The translations under genes and the position numbers were made by a program. Of a stretch of DNA of 64,000 nt, positions 26,101 through 34,980 are shown piece after piece. Each line of letters opens with the position of its first letter. Position 1 is the first letter of the stretch. The notes under the pieces were generated by a model. That model ran no database searches. It was not told where the DNA came from and saw only the letters and a program-made list of their open reading frames with translations. Origin of the DNA: Hericium rajendrae (taxonomy: Eukaryota > Basidiomycota > Agaricomycetes > Russulales > Hericiaceae). The stretch lies in the NCBI GenBank assembly GCA_033439255.1, contig CM065887.1, positions 186,001 through 250,000 of the forward strand. The letters are read 5' to 3'.

Positions 26101-26979
26101 TTTGTAAATTTGTCTCGTATATGTCTTCATCTTCGGACGTTGAGTAGCCATTAGATGCATCGCTATCTTGCTCTGCATCTGTAAGACCCGCTGAGGCAAT
26201 CCTCCCCGTCCTCGCGGACGCGGATGGCAAAGAAGCGTAGGGCAATGGCGGAGCCAAGTGAAGTCGACGGGGGCGAGGAGGATCAGTAGTAAGTTGCAGG
26301 GTATCGTCTGTCCTCCATGAATCGCGAATGACAGGAGGTCCTAATTCTGCAGAGAAATCGACCTCCGGTCGAAGCTAAGACAGATTTCAGTAAGCAGGCT
26401 GCACAGACGAGCAAAGAGGAACACGCGATGCCAAGCCGAAAAGAAAAACAGCAGCTGAAGCGTGCCAATCGACTCCTATACACGAACGCGTCCAGATAAT
26501 GAATGAAAAGGATGACACCGACCCGCTTGAGTAAAGCCTCCATTTTCTCCAATCTGTTTTCCAAGCCCGTCACGTAGCTGCAATCGGGATGAGCACCAGA
26601 CCATTCGCACGGAGCGCCGAATTACTGACGCTTTGGGGGGACCTCTCGGTTTGGACGCTTCTCTGGCCACAGGATCGCACGGGTGCAGAAGTCAGTCACA
26701 CAGTATACGTAAATAAAACTGGAAGACGGCGCACTGGTAGGTGCAGGGTCTTCTCGCTTGCACACAGTTTGAGCAGACATTGGTCGCCGTCTGTGGCCCA
26801 TCACAGCGGGTCTTGCGCCTGCGACACGCATCGCAGGCGCGCTCGACCTTGCGCTTCTTGTGGGATGGACCGGCAAAATTAGCGGACCAGGAATATTGTG
26901 AAATATCGGAGAGTGGGCTTTCAAGGATTTGGTGAAAGGACGAGGAAGGCTGGGTAAAAACGGTCGTGTTGACATGCAT
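23175..26979 (-). CDS. Zn2Cys6 / fungal_trans transcription factor (XlnR-like layout)
   Basis: A large nuclear regulator. From ATG 26979, a Ser-rich leader ends in KKRKVERACDACRRRK; the zinc cluster is C-x2-C-x6-C-x9-C-x2-C-x6-C. A coiled-coil follows (TGLENRLEKMEALLKR), then an acidic Ser-rich linker. The fungal_trans domain begins near LPDLATALIDLYFKQ with RLLHRPTFERQFADGL, and continues through HPNAWIVIGIGARKIQDVG, ELWRRAFWHLVAWDR and LGRPCIMRDEEFD. After a helical region (SLVAGLEWAAQRW) the C-terminus is Pro/Ser-rich. The layout matches regulators of sugar or xylan use, but the regulon cannot be read from sequence. About ten introns. A Helitron end lies only about 210 bases upstream of the start codon. 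Confidence 0.88.
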
Positions 26980-27190
26980 AAGACCGCAAGAGCTAGGGTC
27001 TTCGGGTACAGAGAGGTGGCCTGGATTGCGCAGAGTCGATGAAGGACGTGTTGAAGCCTTGAAAGGGTAAAGAGCAGGGGAGAAAGAGAGGTGGAGAGGT
27101 GGCCCAAGGGTAGAGCACGGAGCGAAAGCGAAATGAGAGGATGTATGGAAGAACAGATATTGCCGAAGTCAGTAACACAGGTTAACAAAA
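26980..27190 (-). promoter_or_regulatory. remaining host sequence upstream of the fungal_trans regulator
   Basis: About 211 bases between the regulator's ATG and the proposed Helitron 3' terminus. This must contain its 5' UTR and, unless promoters are supplied from the element, the core promoter. No clear TATA or activator site was recognised. Confidence 0.4.
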
Positions 27191-27195
27191 CAAGA

Positions 27196-27221
27196 GCCGA
27201 CGGAGCTGGCGCTCCGCCGGT
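27196..27221 (-). repeat. Helitron 3' terminal stem-loop
   Basis: On the element strand the arms are ACCGGCGGAGC and GCTCCGTCGGC around a GCCA loop. Ten of eleven positions pair, counting one G-U. It is followed by TCTTG (27191-27195 in this window). GC-rich hairpins just inside the 3' terminus act as rolling-circle terminators in Helitrons. Confidence 0.7.
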
Positions 27222-27295
27222 CTTGGTGGCGGATATGATGCGACGGTTCTTGAAAAAACCCAAAAATATGAAGACTTAAGAAAAGACATGATTTG

Positions 27296-30200
27296 CTATA
27301 GTAAAATCTCTGGGAAAGTAACATTCGACGTGGTGGTTATGCCTTCAGGTAATCGAAGGAGACAGTGGCGGCGATGACGAATCCTGGACAAAGCAGTATA
27401 TAATTGACCATGAGAGAAAACTGGACGACAGAGATCCACCCCGACTCGATCTAATGTTAGTCCTTGACAACTATTGAAAGTTGTCGCGTATGCAATTGCG
27501 AGAGGAAATTGGCGCCGTAGCAATGTGTGGCCTGAATGCAGTTCGTGATGGAAAGGTATGCGAGGGATAAGAATATTGTCGGATGCAACATCACCATGTC
27601 CATTCAGAGTTGGTAAAAGGCGTTTGACCGTAATGAGGCGTTGTCCGACATCAACGACCACCACACGAGTGTTCTTGACGAGTCCGCGGTCCAAGGACAT
27701 ATTGCGCATTATGCGCATGACTGCGCCGCGCTTTGTTGTTAGGGTGTGGTGCGGTAAACCGGGAGGGGTCTTGGCATGAGCAATGTAATCCAAAACTGGT
27801 TGAGGAGGAATCATTCCGGCATCGTCCGCCTCCTTTAGTGAGTCGGCGGCGAGATAAGTACGTGCGGGTGCTGGCAGTCGATCGAGGATAATACTATTGT
27901 AATTGTCTGTTTGTTCATTCGTAACAGCGAGAATGGATTGGCGGACAGCGGAAATGGGCTCGGTGATGGTTGTGCCAGGAAAGACGAAGTCAATAAGGTC
28001 TTCGGGTGTGGAGCATGTCGGCAGGAAGTCGAGGTTAACCGTGGGACCAGCGCCGTCGCCAATTCCATCGACGAACGCGGCGAATTCGGGATCTTCTGCG
28101 TTACGAATGGGAATGGTCAGACGGCGAATTGTGAATAAATCCCACAGGCCAGAGGAGCGAATAGATGCGTCAACTGTTTGGCGTCGGGAACCATTTTTGA
28201 CGACGGGACATGTTTGACGGAAGTCTCCTGAAATTTTGATAATGAGTGAATGGAGTCAGGTGTAAAGAGCATTGTGACATACCCAGTAAAAGAAGTGTTT
28301 TACCACCGAACGGAATGTCATTTCCCATCACACGTCGTAAGGTGTCATCAACGCAGCTGAGAACGGCTTTATTGGCCATTGGTGCTTCATCCCAAATAAG
28401 GAGAGTAGCAGCTTGAAGAAGTTCACCTCGCGGCGAGTTGCGTTCGATGGGAGAGATGAGCATTTCACTTTTTTCATTGACGGGGACCTAGATGGACTAT
28501 GTTAGTATAATCCGGATGGGATATATAGTAAGACTGACCTTGAATGTGGAATGAGTCGTTCGGCCACCGGGATAAAGTTGAGCGGCATAAGCCGCAGTAG
28601 CAGTCGCAAGCACGATTTGGTTGTGTGCGCGTAGATAATCACATAAACAATTGAGTAGAAATGTTTTACCACGGCCGGCTTTGCCGTCGATGAACATGAG
28701 CGCTGGTGTGGATGTGCGGACGCTAGCCAAGACATCGTCGAAGATGGATCGTTGTTCAATATTTAATATGCCGAGTGCAGCTTGCGCACGAGTATTCAGG
28801 GAAGCGTCGGCTTGCCAACGTTGTAATTCATGTTGCACTTCAGATGAAACATGTTCAACGTCCGGGAGACCGTAGTCTTCAAGGGTCTTGCCTTGTTCTT
28901 CGAGATAAGAATTGAGTTCAGCTAAGGCATGACTAGTGCCAATCGCTTGGTCACCATCGGCATGAACACGAAAGTCGAGCGTGAGATTCGGCTGGAATTG
29001 ATCCCATATTTGGCGGGGGGCAGGGACACAATCATTAAGGAGGAGATCGAGGAATAAAAAACGTAGCTGGCGTGGGCTGCGCATAGCCTGTACACCCTCG
29101 AGGATTGTGTATTCGGCCTCAGTAGTGTGTGTGAATAAACCGGCTTCTATCGCTGCAGCTTGGAAAGAAGGATGCGCGATACCGTCGATCGTGCGGAGGT
29201 CGGCAAACGATAGAGCGGGCTTGTGTTGTAGTAGGCAGCGGACATAAAATCGTTCGCCATCACTCGGGCGTGCGAAAGCCAAACGAGCGACATGTCGTCG
29301 GTTTTCACTGCGCAAGATTACGTGCATGCTAGGTTGGCCAGGGATGAGTCGACTTTCAGCAAATACTTGTGCTTGACTTCGCGAAGATGGACGAGACGTG
29401 CTGAGACGGAAGAGAGTGTAATAATCAGAATAACATAAATCGTCAAAAGAGTGATTTATGCCGCGATAAATGAAAGTGCCGGTTGGGCGCGAGAAATAGC
29501 GATCAAGAAGGGAAGATGATGCACGATTTGGGCCGAATTGACCAACATATTGACGGTGTTGTCGCGAAAGATGGTCATGCACAGGGAGTGTTGAGATGGC
29601 AGGTTTTTTCTTGATTAGTTTGTAACCCAGAATGCGCCAGGTAGCTTCTCCCGAAGTAAGAAAACGTGCATTCCAATATTCCTCGATTTCATCTATATTG
29701 TCTTGGTCTTCGCCGTCGGCGGAACGGACCACGTAAGAGGCTGTATCAGGTCCTGTAGTCGAGCTTAGCATACAGATAATGATGATAAAAATGGAATGAA
29801 CGGACCTTTGTGAACGTATTTGAACAAATAATTAAACATGTGCGAAGACTCAGCAGCTTCGAAATTGATGTGACAATCGAATTTGCGAATCAATTCGAGG
29901 CAATATGCGACAATCATAGAATCGGATGGATGACGCCGGCGATAATTCGGACGTCCAGAAGCTTCGAATGTAGTCGTCTCTTGGAGGGTTTTCGGATATC
30001 CAAAGCGGCAATATCGATTGCCTCGGCTGTCAACGCGTTGACAATACGTCGAAAGCGGTGCGTTCTCGTGGGGATGATGATGGACCATGAATTTTTGGAT
30101 GAGAGCTGCATCGGAGGTGTTCGTTGGAACTTCAGCCGAGATAATCGAATCAATGTCGGCAGACGTTACGCATGGCTTTGCGAACTTGACGAGAATGTGA

Positions 30201-31645
30201 GCATGAGGCAAGCCACGTTTCTGAAACTCGACAACACGAATCATGTACTGCAGATGACCTGCATTCGGAAACATGGTCTCCAGGGCTTTGCAGAGCAAGG
30301 CGAGCTTTTGTTTGAACACGCGCATGACGAGCACAGGCCTGTCAGCGTAATCTTGACCAGGCCGCAGTTGTGATTGGATCTCCGGCCACTGGGCATTGCA
30401 GGTCATTGTGATGAAGAATGTGGGGATGCCATAAAGTGAGGCAAGTGCCAGCGAATCAGCAACTTGTTCGATAGACCAGCGGCGAGAGCCTAAAAATGAT
30501 GCGGGAAGGTAGATGTTCTCATGAGGAGCGATGTCATCGGCACCCATAAGTTCGGCATCCTCTCGACGAAGACGCTCTTGGTTAACACGAATGAAATTGA
30601 GACGTGCCTCAATGCTTCGACTGAACATGTCAACAGCATATTCGTTGGCGAGTCGGCCGAAAATTTCGAAGCGTTGTTCACGTAGCAAACGCGCTCGATA
30701 GTGCCACATTTGAGTGGTTACTGAATCAGCGCTGGCGCTCGTCGTACCTATTCATGCGAGTAATTAGCAAGCATGTCAGATAGTAAAGATAACACACTTA
30801 CCTGCCAAAGAAGCATGCGAAGATGGCAACAGTGTAGCATATTCGTCCGCAGCGTCAGATAGTGGAACACCCCATCCAAGTGTTCCATGCGGAAAGAGCA
30901 GTGGATAAGCTAGAGGTTCCCAGAGACGGCTGTAGATGGAGATATTCTGTGGTCGTCCATCTGTATGTGAGATGACAATTTCGCGAGGGTGTACATCGGT
31001 CAATGATGTATTCTGGAATGAGATAAGTGCAGCTATGTCCTTCGCAGGTCCAGAGTCACGGACGACGAGCTGATATGAAGGCGTTGTTTGTGTTGCTGAT
31101 GATTGCTTTTGGAATACGGAATGCATGGTCCCAAGTGCGGAGACGAATGGATTGTGTGTAAGCAATGCATTGCGAACGCCATCATATGAGAAAGGCGGAA
31201 GGGCAGGAAGGAGTGTAGAATGTGGGGCACCTGCTTCTGGCATGTATCCGTCGTGAAGTATCCACCGAACTGCAGAGTTCGCATGTTGAGAACGCACACG
31301 ATGGTAAGCTTTCCCTTGAATGGCGAAGAAGGCAGGTGGTCCTCTACTGAAGTCAGGAAAGGTGTGAGTGGTTTCGAGAGACGCGAAGCTGAAAACTAAG
31401 TTGATAAGCCGGGATTTGGAAGATACGGTTGGTTCGAGTAGCATGAGATTGTATGTGGGAGGTAACGGCGGCAATGGTGGAACATCGTCCTTTTTCGATC
31501 CATTCGGGCCACAGCAGAATCCCGCACGCTCGCCTGTGAGAAGTAGAATGCCGCAATGTTGACAACGATGAGGCCCGTTTTGGGTTTGCGCTCCCCACTG
31601 TAGTCGCGCACTTGAAATGCGAGCCATCGACCATGTGTCAGTCAT
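27296..31645 (-). CDS. Helitron Rep-helicase transposase
   Basis: One protein of about 1,370 residues in five exons carries both transposition activities. N-terminus: a zinc finger (CQHCGILLLTGERAGFCC). Rep part: the Helitron_like_N signature (FFITMTCNAQWPEI), then the HUH nuclease motif (GLPHAHILV), then the catalytic tyrosine region (FNYLFKYVHKG). Helicase part, of the PIF1/RecD-like SF1 type: Walker A GKAGRGKT, IWDEAPM, GDFRQTCPV split by an intron, and the late motifs ATTFNSCQGLTLDRV and LYTALSRIRHR. The four introns (at about 30.8, 29.8, 28.5 and 28.25 kb) all have GT-AG ends and keep phase. I choose ATG 31645 (MTDTWSM) because the frame further up has no ATG. No break seen. Confidence 0.93.
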
Positions 31646-31888
31646 TATGACTGTGAGACGCAAAAGACAGAAATGAACAGATTGGAAAATGGCGGGGGGC
31701 GAAGCAAGATGAAAATTGTCTGTGGAATGGTACAAATATCCTAAATTCTCAACCTGAAACGCGTTCCGCTGGAGACATGTATCGGCGATTCATGTGAGAT
31801 ATGATAAGCGATATAAAAACTGACACAACTGCGACAATGGACCGGTCGCTCGCACGCGCCGTTGGCATATTACGGAAGGAAACATACG

Positions 31889-32865
31889 TTATGTTTGGCA
31901 TATTTCCGACTGGAAAAATCTACGTCTCATATGAGTCTTGCGAAATGCAAATAACAATGCAAACTCACCGTAGTAGCTAAAATGTGGACATGGATGAAGC
32001 CGCGGCCTTGGACCTCTGTGACAATGTGATAGACTGCAGGCATATCGTTGGTGTGGAGAATGAAAGTGAGCGACAGCCTTGAAGACAGCTGCTGCGAGAT
32101 CAGTCTTCGGTGTATCTGGTACTTAAAAGAAACACGAACCGCGAGACAGTGACTGCATGCGTCATCAGCGACAGGTCCATATCGGCGGCGGGATTGATGG
32201 ACAGCATGGTCATGAAACCGTCACCGATAGTATCCGAGGCTAGACAATCGGCCTGCGCGGCATCAAAAGCAAGCTCTAGACGGCTATCATAGACAATCGT
32301 GGCTATAACGTAGCCTCCCAGCAATGCATACGAGAGATCTAGCGCCATAGTTTCATCTGCATATGTGAATGCGACTGCATCTGAGAAGCGCAAAAGTGTG
32401 TACGCGAGGCGCAATGCACGAAGGGACGTGGGCGATGGGAAAACCATCGTCAGTTCGTACGTGATGATGGATTGTTGACGTCGCTCCCAAAAGATGTGGA
32501 CGGGGAAATGCAAGAAGTCGGAACGATATGCAGTTTCGACAGAAGGCGAGAGCTGCGAAGATGTAATGAGAGAGAATGTCTGAATCAACGGCAAGTTGAA
32601 CTCACCGTCAATGCAATTGTGAGCTTCGGAATAAGATCGCACATAGCTTCATTTGCGACGCGGTTGATAATAGCTAGTGAAATCTCTACAGCATTGGAAA
32701 CGATTTCGATACAGGGTGCTGAGGACACAGCGGAGGAGACGACGGCGATATCTGACGCAAAGTGAGACGGAAGATTCCGGTGGCATTTACCAAACAAAAC
32801 TTACAGTCAGCATTGCCAACCATACATTGGAAACGGAAATAATCGGTTTGCAAGGCATAACGCAT
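31889..32865 (-). CDS. Helitron-borne accessory protein of unknown function
   Basis: Four or five exons give a protein of about 270 residues that I cannot assign. It starts MRYALQTDYFRFQCMV and splices to IAVVSSAVSSAPCIEIVSNA. It then continues KLTIALT / LSPSVETAYRSDFLHF, IFWERRQQSIITYELTM, YALLGGYVIATIVYD and a final exon with TEVQGRGFIHVHIL, ending SEICQT (stop 31889-31891). Every intron is a GT-AG intron of about 50-70 bases and phase is kept. It lies between the Rep-helicase and the OB-like gene, all in one orientation, with gaps of about 120-250 bases. That arrangement suggests a function in the element's life cycle; this is inference. It could also be a captured host gene. Confidence 0.6.
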
Positions 32866-32986
32866 ATCGCGGCAGAAAGTCAAAAGCACAACACAGAGAT
32901 ATTTATTGTCAACGCAATCTTATACGGTACAGAACGGTCACAGGGGGCCAAATCATGCAATACAGGCGGAAGGTAACTTAGATCAG

Positions 32987-34268
32987 TTACCGCTCACGCT
33001 TCTTGCCCTTTCCCTTAGCACGCGTGGCATTGGCAAGCGCACTGCCATCGTTCTCTGACTGCATGCCGGCAGCGGGTGGCACCGAATAATCACGCTCACC
33101 ATCGCTAGGGCTAGTCGGACGATCGATAACACGCTCCACCGGCCCACTGCAAATATGCCAATGAGTGTCTGTTTCATCGCGCGAGTTGAGAGAACTCACA
33201 ATGCAAACGGCGCTGCGGACAAACTGTCAGAGGTTGCGGTAGAACCCACACCTCCTGCAGTCACAGAAGATGGTCCTGCATTGAGAGAAGACGGTCCTGC
33301 GATTGGTGAAGAGCCTACAGTCTGCGTAGCTGATGGCAGCTGCGGAACATGGGCGACTCTAGCGAAATCATGAACAAACGCAAATGTGACGCATGAAAGA
33401 TATAGCCTACCCTGAACTTTGAACAGATCCTCCAACCTTGGATGCGGTACTTGACATGGAGGATACGACCCTGCCAGCCATCAGAACATGTGAATCGAAA
33501 TATACTGCAAAAGACTCACGCGGCTGCGACATCGGTCTTAGGTCGACCGTATTTGCGATGCTTGGCTGCCGGCTGATCTATATCAGGAGGACCAGACGCT
33601 AGATCGCCGTCGGTGGACTCCGTGGCGGTAACCTGCGCGCCAAAGACCAAGTGCGAAACAGACACATGCACGCGCTGCTGCAAAACATGCGAACATGTCC
33701 CAACGACAAATACTGTGCCTCCAACACGAGGCGGCTTCGTGCGCTGCCAGCGCGGTGACTCATCGAAGAAACATCTGTGAAAGAGGACGTTAAATCTCGA
33801 AAACCAAGAATGATTTGAAGCTCACCCGACGACAGAAGTCTGCATACCTCCACGCAGATATTCAGACACGCGAAGGATGAAGTTACGTGGACCAGTCTGA
33901 ATGACTGTGCCCAAACCCGTGAAGGTCGTGCCCTCCATGTCTGGGACAACGGCCTCATAACCATCATCGTCAGGATCGCCGGGATAGGGGAAGAAGTAGA
34001 TAGGTTCGAGGATCGCGCCACCAATCTCGGCATCGATGTGCACCTTGGCCAAGATATAGGCGACGGTCTTATCTGGCAGAGGCTGGCTACCAGCTGGCGC
34101 ATATACTCGTACAGTGCCGTCCATGGGAGTTCCGTTGTTGGCAGATAGCTGGAATGAGAGACTGTATAAATTGAATGGCGTACCAGGTCCGGTGGACCCA
34201 GGAGTCTTTACGAGTGTGTGGCGGGCAGAATACAGTCCGAAATTGCCGCTGACGAGGGCAGAAGACAT
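32987..34268 (-). CDS. Helitron-associated OB-fold-like protein with basic tail
   Basis: About 360 residues over five exons. The N-terminal 150 residues are beta-rich: NGTPMDGTVRVYAPAG, KTVAYILAKVHIDAEIG, then an acidic loop (FPYPGDPDDDGYEAVVPD) and TTFTGLGTVI. A second beta block crosses an intron (LRVSEYLRGG / CFFDESPRWQRT), with GGTVFVVGTCSHV. This pattern recalls the RPA/OB-fold proteins that accompany Helitrons, which bind single-stranded DNA, but I can show no diagnostic motif. The second half is Ser/Ala/Pro-rich and ends in a very basic tail (TRAKGKGKKRER), which would suit nuclear import or DNA contact. It is the first gene at the element's 5' side. Confidence 0.6.
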
Positions 34269-34829
34269 ACTGAGGACAGATAAATGATGAGGGACGGTAG
34301 TTCAGCAAAGGCTTTATGGAGGAAAAGTGGACGAGATACAGCGTAAACGGGAGAAGAACTGAAAGCACTCCAACGACATGCGGAATGACGCACGAACAGC
34401 GGACATGGTTGTCTGATCGGCGATATCGCCCCACTGAATCAATATTGTTTGATTACATCGCGCCCGATGAGAAGCGACGTGGCATAACAGTCATTGAGTG
34501 CAAGGGCGGCAATTATTAAGTATGGTCTCACCAGCGACCGATGATGCGGAACGGCGAGCTTTCAGGACAACGGGCGGGATGACGCGACAGTTTTGAATGA
34601 AGTGGAACGCGGAAGGGCAAGCACGCAACGGAAGCAAATGCAATATTGTAGTCTGAACAGAAGGCAGTCTACAACCAAACACGAGCAAAGTCAGGCAAGA
34701 CGCGCGAAAAGGACTACAACCAAACATGTACAATTGCTGCGCTGCGTCCTGGGTAATAGTAGAGTAATTGAAAATCGAGCTCCGCGAGGAAGCAGTCGAT
34801 CAGAATAGAGCCTTGCCTAGTAACGTACC
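34269..34829. other. non-coding stretch upstream of the OB-like gene
   Basis: About 560 bases with no supported gene on either strand. It probably is the leader region of the Helitron's first gene, or holds the element-host border. Confidence 0.4.
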
Positions 34830-34980
34830 GCGCAGTACGACTGCGCTTCCGACATCGCTGCGTCATACAGGGACCGCATCGCTCAGAACATCCATCTCGA
34901 TCGCACGATCGTCGCACATCCTGAGTCTCACGGAACCGTGAGCTCGCAACGTCTAAAAATCGCATAGAATTCGTATGCGA
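34830..34980. repeat. cluster of four perfect short hairpins
   Basis: Within 151 bases lie GCGCAGT-ACG-ACTGCGC (34830-34846), CGATCG-CA-CGATCG (34898-34911), CTCACGG-AA-CCGTGAG (34927-34942) and TCGCATA-7nt-TATGCGA (34960-34980). The last is nested in ACGTC/GACGT arms (34949-34953 and 34979-34983). They sit 560-715 bases upstream of the OB-like gene, where the Helitron 5' end is expected. Confidence 0.8.

Follow-up and report, generated by a model that had tools for sequence, protein, structure and literature searches.

The window analysed in this study is a 64,000-nucleotide stretch of Hericium rajendrae (assembly GCA_033439255.1, contig CM065887.1, positions 186,001 to 250,000; C10:186001-250000 in our contig labels), and it was found to hold a Helitron of 7,577 bp on the minus strand. 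The element carries a Rep-helicase and, upstream of and co-oriented with it, two further predicted multi-exon genes, here called gene 1 and gene 2. The genome searched comprised 46.8 Mb in 19 contigs and was the sole fungal genome compared; a second copy of the trio, on contig C15, was used for comparison. The features were as follows, in window positions:

34767-27191, minus strand: whole Helitron, 7,577 bp, with host A at 34768 and host T at 27190; ends placed by DNA searches with both termini.
34710..34767, minus strand: 5' end, TTACTCTACTATTACCC..., at no fewer than 38 genome places; host A before 19 of 20 further copies.
34268-33826, 33774-33520, 33470-33411, 33358-33200 and 33146-32987, minus strand: exons of gene 1, 358 aa; splice sites conserved with C15.
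32865-32805, 32751-32606 and 32552-32136, with predicted exon 4 at 32088-31969, minus strand: gene 2, as modelled up to exon 4.
31969..32088, minus strand: putative HUH-like segment, ...VTEVQGRGFIHVHILATT, the sole frame open in both copies, resembling the Rep HUH region.
31645-30802, 30747-29806, 29752-28539, 28487-28283 and 28227-27296, minus strand: exons of the Rep-helicase, 1,378 aa, from Pfam matches and a stop-free spliced frame.
27191..27232, minus strand: 3' end, a hairpin (fold -26.2 kcal/mol, RNA parameters) and CTTG; seven of seven further 3' ends read CTTG and then T.

The termini of the window element read A|TTACTCTACTATTACC on the 5' side and a hairpin followed by CTTG|T on the 3' side. 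In the DNA searches, the 5'-end sequence matched at least 38 places and the 3'-end sequence at least 6, and both counts are lower bounds that include the window copy. Twenty further 5' ends and seven further 3' ends were read directly. At 19 of these 5' ends, an A stood immediately before the start, TT(A/C/T)CTCTACT, and the sequence upstream of it varied, while the copy L062 was without the A. About 15 independent insertions lie behind the 19, as one flank is common to four of them and a second is nearly identical in two. The insertion between A and T (19/20 and 7/7 further ends) without target duplication is that of a Helitron. The 5' TC of Helitrons was not found, the window copy beginning with TTACTC and most other copies with TTCCTC; at the 3' side the hairpin was present and the terminus was CTTG instead of CTRR. 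We thus place the element among the Helitrons, noting that its ends are non-standard. The initial annotation had put the 5' boundary at 34980, which has to be moved 213 bp further in, to 34767. A 5' end at 31.7-31.9 kb, which it had set against its own proposal, was excluded, and the Rep-helicase, gene 1 and gene 2 all lie between the mapped ends. As side observations on the 5' end, the copies L058, L059, L060 and L063 have one flank in common and therefore spread partly by duplication, not insertion. Moreover, the 5'-end sequence lay less than 10 kb from a contig end at 7 of the at least 38 places (C2:4222, C4:7852, C4:3556414, C5:7979, C11:2268684, C12:839 and C12:2220773).

The minus strand matched the Pfam families Helitron_like_N (E 2.8e-39) and PIF1 helicase (E 9.1e-20 and 1.7e-9). 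The spliced Rep consists of five exons and 1,378 residues with zero stops, and all four introns have GT..AG ends. The Rep-helicase had been described as uninterrupted, which holds for the spliced reading frame and not for the gene with its four introns. Its motifs, which we take to be HUH, tyrosine and helicase motifs, occurred in order at residues 392, 453, 588 and 952-1345. Such a fusion of a Rep, bearing HUH and tyrosine motifs, with a Pif1-like helicase is the arrangement of a Helitron, and the window element is apparently intact and autonomous.

The C15 copy (5' end at 372193) contained gene 1, gene 2 and the Rep start in the same order and orientation as in the window. This copy is old and has a broken Rep, part of which is inverted: at C15:365153-369132 (L023), the 3' part of the Rep lies, together with the 3' end, in reverse orientation between its N-terminal and middle portions. 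Between the two copies, gene 1 showed a dN/dS of 0.125 over 346 codons with a dS of 1.02, and its four introns had GT..AG ends in both. For gene 2, exons 1-3 comprised 621 nt in each copy, gapless and stop-free, and the four-exon model gave 248 codons without a stop in either copy. The differences in exons 1-3 by codon position were 38/27/88 (chi-square p 1e-9), with pS 0.53 against pN 0.155 (z 8.5) and a dN/dS of 0.19 over 207 codons at a dS of 0.92. Furthermore, the excess of silent changes was largest in the true frame of six for both genes tested; the runner-up was one antisense frame, which shares wobble positions and holds stops. The three introns of gene 2 also had GT..AG ends in both copies, and the introns of the two genes were 46-55 nt long. 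Identity in their six firm introns was 42-64% against 66-82% in the exons. Because of this constraint, the codon-position bias and the exon identity above intron identity, gene 1 and gene 2 are protein genes under selection, with the lineage of that selection not resolvable from two copies. The alternative that they are gene-like yet non-coding could draw on the lack of family matches and on gene models made from DNA alone. It is contradicted by the codon-position test, and the third-position excess, the gapless open frames and the splice sites conserved across two copies make it extremely improbable. The initial annotation's two multi-exon genes, lying 5' of Rep in its orientation, are therefore upheld by splice sites and constraint shared with C15, and so is their link to the Helitron: both are placed within the element, are under protein-level constraint and occur again in the C15 copy.

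Gene 1 had been described as an OB-like protein with a basic tail. The tail was confirmed as KGKGKKRER, whereas the OB part found no family match by sequence: there were zero matches in Pfam, NCBIfam or PHROG up to E 10, and OB folds were not recognised by sequence. The structure model of exon 1 had a pLDDT of 47, and its best Foldseek match had an E of 0.13. Single-strand-binding (SSB) proteins were named in the titles of 10 of the 50 matches listed for this structure, all with E of 0.13 or more, and SSB was absent among the matches listed in a second set of 50. REPA_OB_2 had a single match in the genome, at C12:547k, on a different contig from the window. No kinship was found between gene 2 and gene 1 (E 0.82). 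A gene of similar build with the tail KGKGKKRKKT was seen at C8:2120591-2121516 (L031 3591-4516), directly 5' of another Rep, the one at C8:2117-2131k. As a relative of gene 1 it was rejected since the match was not significant (E 0.34), and the likeness is taken as analogy only.

The C-terminal part of gene 2 was examined in all three frames of exon 4. The frame proposed initially, running to 31889, stops in C15, the second stops in both copies, and the third alone is open in both. This third frame reads LSSRLSLTFILHTNDMPAVYHIVTEVQGRGFIHVHILATT in the window and contains RGFIHVHIL, which resembles the HUH motif of Rep. A profile of the HUH region was built from four Reps of the genome and searched against 5,033 open reading frames (ORFs). 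The exon 4 frames of C15 (E 0.0069) and the window (E 0.021) ranked directly behind the Rep ORFs, and the next candidate had an E of 0.44; none of the 18,597 shuffles scored reached the exon 4 HUH score. In addition, hhalign of the exon 4 segment against the Rep HUH profile gave an E of 5.7e-5. With a longer Rep profile, the E was 2.7e-4 and the score 37.3; the best of 400 column shuffles scored 23.8, and reversing the sequence gave 19.1. Matches of the segment to other HUH proteins pointed in the same direction and were weak and non-significant. Gene 2 would accordingly have an HUH motif in a Rep-like context, conditional on the predicted exon 4. The catalytic tyrosine after HUH was not found, the conserved frame stopping at exon 4, and neither hhalign nor a tblastn comparison of gene 2 with the Rep loci detected Rep-like sequence past exon 4. 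Since the tyrosine is lacking, gene 2 is not classed as an active HUH enzyme; its predicted protein would be a 207-residue domain of unknown family joined to an HUH-like segment, with neither a tyrosine motif nor a helicase. The earlier description as a protein of unknown family thus stands for exons 1-3, which were not placed, and needs amending for the C-terminal segment.

Three other constructions of gene 2 were considered and discarded. By eye, exons 1-3 looked plausibly homologous to Rep just 5' of HUH, but residues 1-208 scored 14.1 against values of up to 24.1 in 300 shuffles. In a rougher test, 1,770 of 3,000 shuffles reached the real score, and the Rep segment used from C8:1403-1421k probably held an intron. 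For a fusion of gene 2 with Rep, splicing exon 4 onto the acceptor that precedes the Rep start led to an immediate stop (by eye). A better GT donor lies four bases upstream of the chosen one, and the resulting frames are interrupted by a stop in at least one of the copies.

In whole-genome similarity searches, gene 2 was found at two of two trio loci and nowhere else. Exon 1 of gene 1 occurred at eight loci, adjoining Rep pieces of the same family at four of them (C10, C15, C14 and C7); the remaining four (C9 and three on C8) were fragments, with no such Rep in the 10 kb inspected. For exon 2 of gene 1, C10 and C15 were the only contigs with a match. The C14 locus is a deletion copy that retained both ends, gene 1 exon 1 and, of the Rep, the 219 C-terminal residues. 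In all, 67 Helitron_like_N (PF14214) matches were counted across the genome, and in some cases a single gene accounts for several. The other Rep loci inspected were two at C8:1403-1421k and one each at C2:2168-2184k and C8:2117-2131k; for six more Reps, the upstream side only was inspected, for same-strand ORFs of at least 85 aa. Gene 2 was absent at all inspected Rep loci outside the trio subfamily, and across the Rep loci inspected the trio is restricted to one subfamily of the genome.

These results also bear on the alternative that both extra genes are passengers, captured from the host or another element and kept for reasons unrelated to transposition. Gene capture by Helitrons is well known, HELPO1 of Pleurotus reportedly carrying captured genes of unknown function (PMC4289320), and the other inspected Helitrons of this genome were without these genes. 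On the other hand, gene 2 occurred only in the trio, and no host-like paralogue of gene 1 or gene 2 was found in the whole-genome searches. Moreover, the HUH-like segment would indicate an origin from Rep instead of a host gene, and constraint across a long divergence within the element also argues against passengers. This explanation was considered unlikely.

Some observations were made at neighbouring and related loci. At C8:1403001-1421000 (L027, L028), a plus-strand Rep-only Helitron apparently lies inside a minus-strand relative and splits its Rep in two. The regions C8:1931001-1941000 (L034) and C8:1790001-1800000 (L035), each with a gene 1 exon 1 fragment, were 94% identical over 8.8 kb. 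Just past the Helitron 3' end, window positions 26692-27168 on the minus strand hold a frame with VERACDACRRRKTRCDG, which presumably resembles a Zn2Cys6 transcription factor.

The usual Helitron model is one protein working with host factors. In IS91, a small accessory frame adjoins the HUH transposase, and the likeness to the window element is one of gene arrangement only. HELPO2 from Pleurotus ostreatus is reported with a CTTG 3' end and a Rep-helicase alone (Castanera et al. 2014, PMC4289320). The window element was similar in its Rep-helicase, A-T insertion, subterminal hairpin and CTTG rather than CTRR, and differed from HELPO2, as described there, in having two genes 5' of Rep (PMC4289320). 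For HELPO1, the same source reports captured genes downstream of the Rep-helicase and a RepHel ORF without an RPA domain, and capB accompanying the Rep-helicase in several basidiomycetes (PMC4289320). Like capB of HELPO1.2, the genes reported here are of unknown function and travel with a Rep-helicase; they lie upstream of it, whereas the HELPO1 cap genes lie downstream, and they were set apart from capA-capF by description (PMC4289320). The Mothra paper deals with the RPA-like genes of plant Helitrons and argues for at least three acquisitions of single-strand-binding proteins (PMC4683698). A proposed single-strand-binding companion of Rep borne by the element is shared with plant Helitrons (PMC4683698), while gene 1 had no match to RPA or another OB family by sequence. 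In a 2016 Fusarium survey, the FoHelis were reported to be without an RPA-like gene and to have one extra ORF in the opposite orientation (PMC5148889). The extra ORF of FoHeli3 was likewise reported as Helitron-only and without known domains, and differed in orientation from gene 1 and gene 2, which are co-oriented with Rep (PMC5148889). According to two other reports, OTU and tegument-type deubiquitinase domains occur in some animal Helitrons (PMC9741609), and TET/JBP genes in some fungal ones (PMC12730594). The open-access literature searched yielded no paper recognised as describing an accessory of OB or HUH type in Helitrons of fungi. Accessory genes of Helitrons are thus known as a kind, and the pair of gene 1 and gene 2 is regarded as new, with the cap genes compared by description only.

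We propose that the apparently intact, autonomous CTTG Helitron carries a three-protein kit. Nicking, joining and unwinding by the Rep-helicase are established Helitron biology; here, judging from the motifs of the Rep-helicase, nicking and joining at the ends would fall to its HUH/tyrosine centre, while its Pif1-like helicase would displace the strand. In plant Helitrons, RPA-like proteins are thought to bind the single strand or the ends. Gene 1 probably does the same, as its position, strand-rich pattern and basic tail suggest. By its HUH-like segment, gene 2 would most likely pair or compete with the full Rep at the ends, acting as a non-catalytic partner or a brake.

Several findings weigh against this proposal. 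The OB fold of gene 1 had no firm backing from the structure model or Foldseek. The donor into the predicted exon 4 of gene 2 is weak (GTGTTT in the window, GTGCTC in C15), and exon 4 alone showed no clear codon-position bias (10/8/11) and a dN/dS of 0.38. This exon is 120 nt long, gapless and 76% identical between the copies, compared with 72% for Rep intron 1 and 73% for the stretch past exon 4, and its conservation is indecisive because these two are nearly as conserved. The HUH similarity of gene 2 is confined to exon 4 and stops short of exons 1-3. Furthermore, gene 2 is present in two copies only, both within one genome, and the Rep relatives at C8:1403-1421k and C2:2168-2184k had neither extra gene upstream; therefore, genes 1 and 2 are not required by every Helitron in the genome. 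The weak donor sites and the missing codon-position bias would also fit a real gene 2 without exon 4, in which the HUH-like stretch is an old Rep remnant and a short unspliced tail follows exon 3, and read-through past exon 3 soon hits a stop in both copies. Against this, the 120 nt stayed gapless with one frame open in both copies despite a dS near 1, and the joining intron has GT..AG ends and a length like that of the other introns. We regard this version of gene 2 as improbable, and the predicted HUH segment has a somewhat better than even chance of belonging to the gene 2 protein. For the three-protein kit with the roles proposed above, our confidence is evenly balanced, because of the weak exon 4 donor and of Rep intron 1 being nearly as conserved as exon 4.

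A further suggestion is that gene 2 may be a previously undescribed component dedicated to rolling-circle transposition in fungi, combining a novel domain with a tyrosine-less HUH segment derived from Rep, and accompanied by an element-encoded single-strand-binding protein unrelated to RPA by sequence. This suggestion is tentative and rather doubtful. The element, whose ends are mapped and whose two additional genes are under constraint, provides candidates for single-strand handling and Rep control in fungi. If a Rep-derived HUH segment is indeed present on a separate protein, it would suggest a partner or brake derived from the transposase itself.

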